This document shows positions 6,108 to 33,510 of a DNA stretch of 39,535 nt, in pieces. Under the pieces are notes generated by a model. That model saw nothing but the letters and a program-made list of their open reading frames with translations. It was not told the DNA's origin and did not search any database. The first letter of the stretch is position 1, and every line of letters begins with the position of its first letter. Position numbers and translations under genes: made by a program. The stretch lies in assembly GCA_903897785.1 (NCBI GenBank), contig CAIUCZ010000060.1:1-39535 (forward strand). The letters are read 5' to 3'. Source of the stretch: Candidatus Falkowiibacteriota bacterium. GTDB lineage: Bacteria; Patescibacteriota; Patescibacteriia; Patescibacteriales; Patescibacteriaceae.

Positions 6108-6120
6108 AAAAACTTTAAGA

Positions 6121-6221
6121 CTGCCGCAGTCCCCCGACTAACGTCGGGGAGACTACGGCAGGGCGGAAAGTCCCACCGCCGTGCCATAGTCTCCCGTACT
6201 CGGGGACTGTGGCACTCTTTT
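6121..6221. repeat. Two tandem CATAGTC-core hairpins
   Basis: 6121-6161 pairs CTGCCGCAGTC with GACTACGGCAG around an inner stem CCCCGAC/GTCGGGG. 6181-6215 pairs GTGCCATAGTC with GACTGTGGCAC around CCCG/CGGG and is followed by a T-run on the plus strand. The outer bases differ from the other copies but stay paired. The genes on both sides are minus strand, so the T-run is on the wrong side for their terminator. Confidence 0.75.
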
Positions 6222-26207: not shown

Positions 26208-26232
26208 AATTTTAATTTAAAATATTCTACTT

Positions 26233-26305
26233 GGTCACCCCGGCGCATGCCGGGGTCCAGTTTAATGGCACAAACATCTGGATACCGGCATGCGCCGGTA
26301 TGACC
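26233..26305. repeat. Pair of facing REP-like units between atpE and atpF
   Basis: GGTCACCCCGGCGCATGCCG...CCAG (26233-26260) and the reverse-oriented CTGGATACCGGCATGCGCCG...GACC (26278-26305) are two copies of the GTCATxCCGGCGCATGCCGGxATCCAG type. Each is itself palindromic. This sequence type is widespread as a dispersed bacterial repeat. Confidence 0.85.
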
Positions 26306-26366
26306 ACTAAAACTTTTCTACTAAACCCAAACCTGTCTTCAAAAACTTGAAGACAGAAAAGATTTA

Positions 26367-27610: not shown

Positions 27611-27868
27611 CTATAAATCAGTCTTATCTATTTTCTTTTCTGACTTCTTTAATTTCTTGCGGTAGGCCATAGTTTTGCTAATTAGTCCAGTCATTGAGAC
27701 AACAAAGGCGCAACCGACCAAAACTAATAGCCAAAAAGGCGAACTGGCGTATTTCTGGTCCAGCCATTTGCCAATAAACAAGGCAAAAATCACCGGAACG
27801 GTTATCAAGCAGGATAGCTCGGCAAACAGCGTGACGCTTTCTTGCCACCAGGGCTCATTCTTATGCAT
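27611..27868 (-). CDS. AtpZ/AtpI-family small membrane protein
   Basis: An 85-residue protein with two membrane helices (CLITVPVIFALFIGKWLDQK and PFWLLVLVGCAFVVSMTGLI) and a basic C-terminus. The GKWLDQKY...SPFWLL pattern is that of AtpZ (a relative of AtpI), which is usually first in atp operons and is linked to Mg2+/Ca2+ or ring assembly. It is the first gene of the operon here. Confidence 0.8.
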   Translation of the reverse strand: MHKNEPWWQESVTLFAELSCLITVPVIFALFIGKWLDQKYASSPFWLLVLVGCAFVVSMTGLISKTMAYRKKLKKSEKKIDKTDL

Positions 27869-27880
27869 AAAAAAGCAAAA

Positions 27881-28060
27881 TAAGATGGCTATAAATCTGT
27901 TTTTTTTTAACGAAATTTAGATATTTTTTGTCTAGATTAGGAAGGCCAGCAAAATAATTGAGCCGTAGTTAATCTACGGTGAAATTATTTTGCGCCAGCC
28001 TGACGACATCTAGGCGAAAAATAGCAAATTGCAGTAAAAAATAGATTTATAGCCATCTTA
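27881..28060 (-). promoter_or_regulatory. Structured leader or MITE-like element before the atp operon
   Basis: Bases 27881-27898 and 28043-28060 form an 18-bp perfect inverted repeat (TAAGATGGCTATAAATCT). Nested inside are CTAGAT/ATCTAG pairing, an 11-bp stem GCAAAATAATT/AATTATTTTGC (27949-27959 and 27983-27993) and an apical stem CCGTAG/CTACGG (27963-27968 and 27974-27979). The outer stem ends 12 bases before the atpZ ATG, which has no SD. It lies downstream of the 28108-28136 promoter, so it should be transcribed. The ends TA...TA would also fit a TA-flanked miniature transposon. Confidence 0.65.
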
Positions 28061-28065
28061 CATAT

Positions 28066-28080
28066 AAGGAACCGGTCCTT
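28066..28080. promoter_or_regulatory. Near-palindrome downstream of the atp promoter
   Basis: AAGGAACCGGTCCTT is a near-perfect palindrome (one unpaired base) about 20-35 bases downstream of the predicted start of transcription. It could be an operator site; no regulator is identified. Confidence 0.3.
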
Positions 28081-28107
28081 ACATTTCACAAATAAGCTAC
28101 CACTTAA

Positions 28108-28136
28108 TTTATAGCCAAAAGGCGGGGAAAAGTCAA
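28108..28136 (-). promoter_or_regulatory. Predicted promoter of the ATP synthase operon
   Basis: On the minus strand TTGACT (28131-28136) and TATAAA (28108-28113) are separated by exactly 17 bases. The predicted start near 28101 leaves a leader of about 230 nt before the first ATG at 27868. Confidence 0.6.
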
Positions 28137-28221: not shown

Positions 28222-28316
28222 CAGTCGTAGTCTCACGAAGTGGACTACGACTGTCTTAAAAATTCATCTCTGTCTCGCCGCAGTCTTCCCGATGTACTCG
28301 TCGAGAGACTGCGGCG
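28222..28316. repeat. Two CATAGTC-family hairpins
   Basis: 28222-28253 is a perfect 11-bp stem, CAGTCGTAGTC/GACTACGACTG. 28276-28316 pairs CGCCGCAGTCT with AGACTGCGGCG and is followed by a T-run on the plus strand. They lie in the 466-base space between atpZ and the rhuM-like gene; the rest of that space is the atp promoter, its leader element, and low-complexity sequence with the direct words TCGG(G/A)TGTCAG (28140-28175). Confidence 0.75.
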
Positions 28317-28334: not shown

Positions 28335-29294
28335 TTATCCAATTTTATTCTCTAAACTTTTCTGATTAAATTTCGCCAATTCCGAGCGCACTTTTTGTTC
28401 CATCACCTGATGCGAGACGCCGCCGGCATTATCCAAAATTTCTTTGTCGTTCAATACCAAAAAGCCGTCTAATTTTTTCACCCAATCGCGCATATACATT
28501 ACCCGCTGTTCCACGCTTTGCAATTCGGCAAACGACAAAAATTGCTCCACCAACAAATTTAATCTTTTTAATTCCAGCTCCTCCAAATAATTTTTGGCAA
28601 TTTGCGCTTGCTCGCGGGTAATAATTTCACCCTGCCAATTGGTTAAGCCTAAATTTGTTTTGCCGCTGTCCACGCGGCTGGCGACAATCTCCGCCGCCGT
28701 CTGACCGGTGATGGCAAAATGGAATTTATTTTGCACCACGGCAAAAAATCTCTGGGCGTAATCAGTCTTGGGATTATAATCGACGCTGGTGGCAAACACT
28801 GCCCTGACTTTTTGATAAAAATTAGCCTCCGAAGTTCTGATGCGGCGCACCCGTTCTTCCCATTCCTGAAAATAACTTTTGGCCACCCCGCCGTTAGCCA
28901 AACGATTATCGTCCATGACAAAACCTTTAACAATATATTCTTTGAGCTTTTGCGTAGCCCAAATACGAAATTGCGTGCCGCGTAGAGATTTTACGCGATA
29001 ACCAACAGAAATAACAACGTCAAGGTTATAATATCTCACCGATTGTTCTTGGGTTCTTTCTTTCATGGCCCCGTGTTGAGTGGTATGTCGGAAATCCCGA
29101 CATACCACTTCTTCACCCAGCTCACCCTCTCTAAATACATTTTGTATATGTTCGGCGATAGTTGATCGTCCTTTGTCAAACAAAACCGCAATTTGGTCTT
29201 GTGTAAGCCAAACCGTCTCGTCTTGCAATTTGACTTCAATTTTCGTTTGGCCGTCCTGGCTTTTGTAGATGATGATTTGGTTATTTACTTCCAT
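28335..29294 (-). CDS. RhuM-family (virulence RhuM-like) protein
   Basis: A 319-residue protein of the RhuM family. It shows an N-terminal winged-helix-like segment (ETVWLTQDQIAVLFDKGRSTIAEHIQNVF), the conserved YYNLDVVISVGYRVKSLRGTQFRIWATQKL block and FVMDDNRLANGG. These are the family hallmarks. RhuM is named after a Salmonella pathogenicity-island gene; its biochemical role is not established, and it is frequent on accessory DNA in free-living bacteria. A palindrome and possible promoter lie immediately upstream (29300-29360). CATAGTC hairpins flank it on both sides. Confidence 0.9.
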   Translation of the reverse strand: MEVNNQIIIYKSQDGQTKIEVKLQDETVWLTQDQIAVLFDKGRSTIAEHIQNVFREGELGEEVVCRDFRHTTQHGAMKERTQEQSVRYYNLDVVISVGYRVKSLRGTQFRIWATQKLKEYIVKGFVMDDNRLANGGVAKSYFQEWEERVRRIRTSEANFYQKVRAVFATSVDYNPKTDYAQRFFAVVQNKFHFAITGQTAAEIVASRVDSGKTNLGLTNWQGEIITREQAQIAKNYLEELELKRLNLLVEQFLSFAELQSVEQRVMYMRDWVKKLDGFLVLNDKEILDNAGGVSHQVMEQKVRSELAKFNQKSLENKIG

Positions 29295-32957: not shown

Positions 32958-33281
32958 TTACTGTTTCTTCCATACGCCTATAATTAAATTTATTTTCTTT
33001 TTCACTGTCCAGCCTTTTAATTGCGTCTCCCTCCTTCTAGCGGCCAATAGGGATTCTTGTGTTTCATAATAAACCAGTTTTACCGGTCTTCGCATTTTAG
33101 TCCATAGAGCACCTTCGCCATGATTGTGCTTTTTTAGCCTATTTTTAAGGTCAAATGTTGAACCACAATAGATACTGTCATCTCTACAGAGCAATAAGTA
33201 AACGAAGCAGATCCCTTCGACTCCGCTATCGCTCCGCTCAGGGCATTCGACTTCTTTAAATTTAAAGATCGTTGGTTCCAT
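32958..33281 (-). CDS. GIY-YIG nuclease domain protein with repeat-encoded N-terminus
   Basis: A small UvrC/homing-endonuclease-type GIY-YIG domain: CFVYLLLCRDDSIYCGST (GIY-YIG core), then LKNRLKKHNHG and ETQLKGW. Using ATG 33281 gives 107 residues; a TTG at 33320 would add 13 more, which look like translation of repeat sequence. Residues about 10-24 (KEVECPERSDSGVEG) also appear to be encoded by a GC-rich dispersed palindrome, since the DNA (33195-33250) reads CCCTTCGACTCCGCTATCGC and so on. The function is unknown; single-domain proteins like this are common in CPR. A terminator follows. Confidence 0.85.
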   Translation of the reverse strand: MEPTIFKFKEVECPERSDSGVEGICFVYLLLCRDDSIYCGSTFDLKNRLKKHNHGEGALWTKMRRPVKLVYYETQESLLAARRRETQLKGWTVKKKINLIIGVWKKQ

Positions 33282-33510
33282 AAATGACGGTCGTAGACCA
33301 TGAGCGTAGCGAAGCCTCAAGGCCGAACGAAGTCGAATGGTCGGGCTGCGCGGAATTGGCTCCGGTCGCTAAGCCTCGCTAGCACCTCCCGTTGGTCAGC
33401 GCGTCGCTCGCTAAGCGCCCCAGCCCGGCCTCACCTGTGCCTTCGCTACGCTCCGGCACATGGTTCCGGCTTTCAATTCCGCCGCAAGCCAAGCAGTTGG
33501 CTTGCTGCAG
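33282..33510. repeat. GC-rich repeat cluster between the GIY-YIG gene and tRNA-Pro
   Basis: The segment contains GACCAT/ATGGTC (about 33296-33301 and 33337-33342), GCGTAGCGAAGCC-type words, a GTGCC/GGCAC hairpin (about 33438-33462) and a GGAATTG...CAATTCC pair (about 33352-33358 and 33470-33476). At 33340-33358 it carries a 19-base exact copy of the tRNA-Pro 3' end. No protein gene is supported. Confidence 0.6.

Follow-up and report, generated by a model that had tools for sequence, protein, structure and literature searches.

Bacterial MITEs such as Correia/NEMIS, RUP, ERIC and QMITE2 are shorter than 200 bp, carry terminal inverted repeats and are flanked by a target duplication; they are non-coding, A+T-rich and mostly intergenic, and their transcripts would form long stem-loops (PMC2229807, PMC10969869). 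The Rickettsia palindromic elements (RPEs) comprise several dispersed families of palindromes of ~100-180 bp in small-genome, host-dependent bacteria and encode peptides that are fused in frame to host proteins (PMC2229807, PMC10969869), while their target duplication is given as unknown (PMC2229807). The hairpin described here, which lies ahead of the atp operon in the window (the whole 39,535-nt stretch of DNA analysed), shares all of these properties of MITEs, and is like the RPEs in being palindromic, of similar length and dispersed in small-genome, host-dependent bacteria. It differs from Correia/NEMIS, RUP, ERIC and QMITE2 in its 3-bp duplication, its GAG ends, its Patescibacteria hosts and its partly exchangeable interior and ends. 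It differs from the RPEs in that its copies are mostly intergenic, in that the clear gene insertion found breaks the reading frame, and in having a demonstrated target duplication. No sequence relation to any described family was found in Rfam, plasmids or phages.

Structure and dispersal of the hairpin

The segment 27881-28060 folds as a single long imperfect hairpin of 180 nt. The element itself measures 178 bp (27882-28059), or 180 bp if the outermost T/A pair is included. The features of the locus are as follows.

27882..28059, plus strand (family-model orientation): element, very probably an old MITE copy, AAGATGGCTATAAATCT ... AGATTTATAGCCATCTT; covariance model score 174 bits
27882..27905, plus strand: left terminal inverted repeat, equal to the outer stem; family consensus GAGATGGTTACAAAACTATTT
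28036..28059, plus strand: right terminal inverted repeat, complementary to the left one
27904..27920, plus strand: left subterminal motif, approximate position from alignments; family TTTCGTARCGAAATTT
28020..28036, plus strand: right subterminal motif, approximate position from alignments; family AAATTGCAGYARAAA
27949..27993, plus strand: internal 11-bp stem with 6-bp apical stem-loop CCGTAG/CTACGG, from sequence and folds
27879..27881 and 28060-28062: left flank AAT and right flank ACA, no exact target duplication left
27611..27868, minus strand: AtpI/AtpZ-like gene, first of the atp operon, 85 aa, PF09527
26726..27607, minus strand: atpB, F0 subunit a, PF00119
28108..28136, minus strand: predicted sigma-70-like promoter match TTGACT-17-TATAAA, from sequence, outside the element

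A preliminary description of this DNA had named an 18-bp outer, an 11-bp internal and a 6-bp apical stem, and all three are present in the sequence and the folds. The outer stem is perfect over 18 bp and belongs to arms of 25 nt (27881-27905 / 28036-28060) that are 96% complementary in an inverted-repeat comparison; the internal stem pairs 27949-27959 with 27983-27993, and the apical stem 27963-27968 with 27974-27979. The fold is far more stable than expected for its composition, both as minus-strand RNA (27860-28110, z-score -7.8) and as plus-strand single-stranded DNA (27870-28070, z-score -11.6), with 0 of 200 shuffles equally stable in each case. The element has no visible coding capacity. 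When Rfam was searched with the hairpin, nothing scored above the gathering score, and the sub-threshold matches, mostly to miRNA-type hairpins, are matches of shape only.

The same element recurs at many unrelated places, as the preliminary description had anticipated for a MITE. Its own genome (869 kb, 96% complete) contains the window copy and four others, five in all, at unrelated places, and 11 of 61 genomes (this one and 60 relatives) gave a match. A covariance model trained on 13 copies then detected the element in 23 of the 111 genomes examined from the order and, among genomes sampled across the class, in 35 of 381 (31 of 292 genera), a single genome holding at most about a dozen copies. 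A Falkowbacteria MAG (G063) holds about ten near-identical full copies together with several 51-bp palindromes, all at unrelated sites, and a Taylorbacteria MAG holds 13 copies. The copies are mostly intergenic and A+T-rich. Plasmids and phages gave no match; in viral contigs there was one, single-ended and within coding-like sequence, which we take as chance.

Minimal palindromes of 35 and 51 bp exist alongside the full-length copies. These look like internal deletion products, some of which are perhaps themselves mobile. Solo ends of ~18-26 nt (GAGATGGTTACAAAACTA...), unaccompanied by a second end in the vicinity, were also seen in G063 and G057 (L107, L110, L111, L116, L120, L121), and are probably remnants of hairpin deletion.

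Ends, target duplication and the putative mobilising transposase

Since copies in G063 that are otherwise identical vary at the outermost base, the true ends are placed one position inward (GAGATGG...CCATCTC). On this definition of the ends, identical 3-bp direct repeats border 35 of 60 distinct copies in relatives, whereas random re-pairing of the flanks (2000 rounds) produced 6.9 such cases on average and never more than 16; identical 4-bp flanks were found at 0 of 60. The 3-bp duplication is present at every one of the 11 complete Taylorbacteria copies. Insertion without duplication was rejected, because the repeats appear once the ends are moved inward. The preliminary description had offered, as its alternative, a TA-flanked miniature transposon of ~176 bp; the transposon holds good, at 178 bp, but the TA flanks do not, as this lineage has a 3-bp duplication. 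TA-only (IS630/Tc1-like) insertion is accordingly rejected for the window lineage, although other end types are flanked by TA.

One Taylorbacteria copy (L165), with TTT on either side, has inserted into a PaaX-like gene and disrupts it. Removal in silico of the element and one TTT restores a 201-aa frame, in which a PaaX_M domain (residues 113-185, E 2.5e-20) crosses the junction; it is this reading frame that marks the presumptive empty site. A 51-bp copy (L064) sits within an IS481-like transposase gene. Separately, a divergent copy (L045/L247, G068:C91:4474-4982) splits a DDE_Tnp_1 transposase gene.

In the own genome, an exact duplication is absent from the window copy and from two other checkable copies. 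The outer stem of the window copy has drifted from the family consensus through paired changes and, together with the AAT/ACA flanks, this indicates age: the window copy would be an old insertion whose target duplication has decayed.

Terminal inverted repeats, a target duplication of fixed length and short dispersed copies without a transposase are the hallmarks of MITEs, and the element has each of them. We therefore consider it very probable (roughly 0.94) that it is a non-autonomous MITE moved by a DDE-type transposase, with an old copy ahead of the atp operon. Its basis is a repeat family, the dispersal of that family, the 3-bp duplication, the interrupted gene and the absence of the element from the atp loci of relatives. 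The class of transposase is suggested by the duplication length and the ends. Such an enzyme, acting in trans, would cut at GAGATGG...CCATCTC, and insertion would duplicate 3 bp of target, mostly A/T-rich; the window copy would be an ancient insertion between atpI and a promoter that was already there, and its duplication would have decayed afterwards.

Three observations stand against the MITE reading. An exact duplication is missing from the window copy and the two other checkable copies of the own genome, covariation along the whole stem exceeds what transposition of a MITE needs, and an autonomous element with GAGATGG...CCATCTC ends was not found in 17 genomes at 2-3 mismatches. An autonomous partner in the Falkowbacteria and Taylorbacteria lineages would be expected to carry the end sequence GAGATGGTTACAAAACT. 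At 2 mismatches, no element with matching ends 0.5-5 kb apart was present in 16 genomes, whose MAG assemblies are fragmented, nor was an autonomous element with matching ends found in the Taylorbacteria MAG at 3 mismatches or in viral contigs. The own genome yielded no partner transposase. The IS1031, ISL2 and IS427 groups of the IS5 family have GAG-type ends and 2-4 bp duplications, which the GAG ends and 3-bp duplication of the element resemble. Membership of an IS5-derived group is nevertheless not borne out: PF13340 (IS5-type) occurred in 0 of 40 genomes searched, and PF01609 transposases, which 13 of 38 genomes contain and the own genome lacks, do not bear GAGATGG...CCATCTC-type ends.

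Covariation and exchangeable parts

Among 42 distinct copies, pairing holds in 97% of cells; two-sided changes occur in 39 of 61 stem pairs, a number that none of the 500 shuffles and none of the slid controls reached. These changes could reflect selection for the fold. However, in one G063 copy (L061, 1053-1227) the outer left arm reproduces the right arm exactly in inverted form, which we read as direct evidence of arm-to-arm copying (template switching), and such copying makes covariation possible in the absence of selection. In a first set, an excess of G.U over A.C pairs (38:14) was suggestive of a strand preference, but it was not reproduced in a second (22:13, sign test p = 0.52).

The ends and the interior also appear to be partly separable. 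In G464, matching ends surround an unrelated 152-bp interior, again a hairpin, with flanks TAG/TAG and ATG/ATG. Conversely, a subterminal motif (TTTCGTARCGAAATTT ... AAATTGCAGYAGAAA) is common to elements with different ends: the AGGGTCTGTTGC end type has this motif together with 3-bp repeats. Elements with GACCTG or GAGCCT ends share the motif as well and have TA on both sides in 14 of 14 cases, where the TA, being self-complementary, may be part of the ends rather than of the flank. In G046, the whole apical stem is replaced by a different hairpin. GC-rich hairpins (CCTGCCCG..., CCTCGCAAATGCGAGG, CCCCGCATTTGCGGGG) were further seen inserted in, or swapped for, parts of the element in L068, L069, L062, L041, L055 and L070; these are nested palindromes of another kind.

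We think it unlikely that the hairpin interior is a selected RNA or single-strand DNA cargo, carried in many Patescibacteria genera between exchangeable ends (the 3-bp-duplicating GAGATGG, the TA-flanked GACCTG/GAGCCT and AGGGTCTGTTGC) and not the by-product of one transposase. Quite unlikely, too, is a structured element, RNA or single-strand DNA, whose fold is under selection and which spreads by shared or swapped transposon ends. The frequency of two-sided changes, which none of the 500 shuffles equalled, the conservation of asymmetric internal loops, the exchange of an entire apical stem in G046 and the retention of the subterminal motif despite different ends would all fit selection for the fold; yet the copying seen in L061 can mimic covariation, the second set establishes no strand, and the 51-bp copies are dispersed although they have no interior.

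The atp operon and remaining alternatives

Downstream of the hairpin, the minus strand carries atpI/atpZ, atpB, atpE, atpF, atpH, atpA and atpG. Immediately upstream of the element lies a Virulence_RhuM family gene (28335-29294; PF13310, E 6.7e-97). The main claim of the preliminary description was that the hairpin is a regulatory leader of this operon, and several of its particulars are accurate. The promoter match is present on the minus strand (TTGACT 28136-28131, a 17-nt spacer and TATAAA 28113-28108, the -10 element missing the final T, for which reason the promoter scan does not list it), but such sites are common by chance, with one found in this stretch against 1.5 expected. Likewise, the gap of 12 nt between the outer stem and the ATG at 27868 and the absence of an SD are correct; however, SDs are missing from nearly all atp genes of the own genome, so their absence at atpI is nothing special. 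The leader running from the promoter match would be ~233 nt long with the element and ~55 nt without it. Since the latter is an ordinary length, the arithmetic suggests that the element inserted into a pre-existing leader, between an existing promoter and atpI.

The element was absent from all 29 atp loci of relatives, fetched by AtpB homology, of which a few are truncated by contig ends. The pairing is not conserved at these loci, and there are multiple genomic copies, the two observations that the preliminary description had named as refuting a regulatory leader. The compensatory changes that it had proposed to look for do exist, but among dispersed copies instead of atp leaders. A 5' UTR hairpin or riboswitch governing access to the atpI start would be in keeping with the position of the stem 12 nt ahead of atpI, the upstream promoter match and the very stable fold; we reject it as highly improbable, given the 29 relatives' loci, the unrelated genes that adjoin other copies, the lack of an Rfam family and the generality of SD absence among the atp genes here. 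Should the promoter be real, a 180-nt hairpin ending 12 nt before the start codon would form part of the atp transcript, assuming transcription through the element. Any influence of the element on the expression of the atp genes would be secondary and lineage-specific.

Least credible of all, and rejected, is a REP/REPIN-type element mobilised by an IS200-like Y1 transposase (RAYT): the hairpin shape, the 35- and 51-bp palindromes and two Y1 genes in the Falkowbacteria MAG (G063) are in its favour, but Y1_Tnp is absent from the own genome and from G005, G009, G049, G056 and G062, all of which have copies, and Y1 transposition is not known to make a target duplication, in contradiction to the 3 bp seen here.

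The window contains other repeats. A palindrome between atpE and atpF (26232-26306) has 29-nt arms that are 86% complementary, and its reading frame is presumably the 'IPAHAGIQ ... PACAGVT' type peptide of widespread bacterial intergenic repeats; two unrelated repeats may thus have inserted in the atp operon. GC-rich hairpins sharing CCGYAGTC/GACTRCGG, possibly a REP-like family or terminators, occur at 28222-28253, 28276-28316 and ~6117-6160, and at ~1438-1475 of L004; the one at ~6117-6160 is closely similar to a hairpin adjoining the own-genome copy C28. Elsewhere in the window, a putative GIY-YIG endonuclease-like reading frame (32958-33320, VYLLLCRDDSIYCGSTFDLKNRLKKH) was recognised by eye only.

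Returning to the MITE reading, its first consequence is that a tempting but false riboswitch ahead of the atp genes is removed. A caution also follows: a functional RNA should not be deduced from strong covariation alone when the palindrome is dispersed, one copy here showing arm-to-arm copying. Among the open-access papers searched, none described MITEs or palindromic repeats from Patescibacteria/CPR. The element is apparently a new, widespread and undescribed MITE family of Patescibacteria, of a well-known kind (PMC2229807, PMC10969869).
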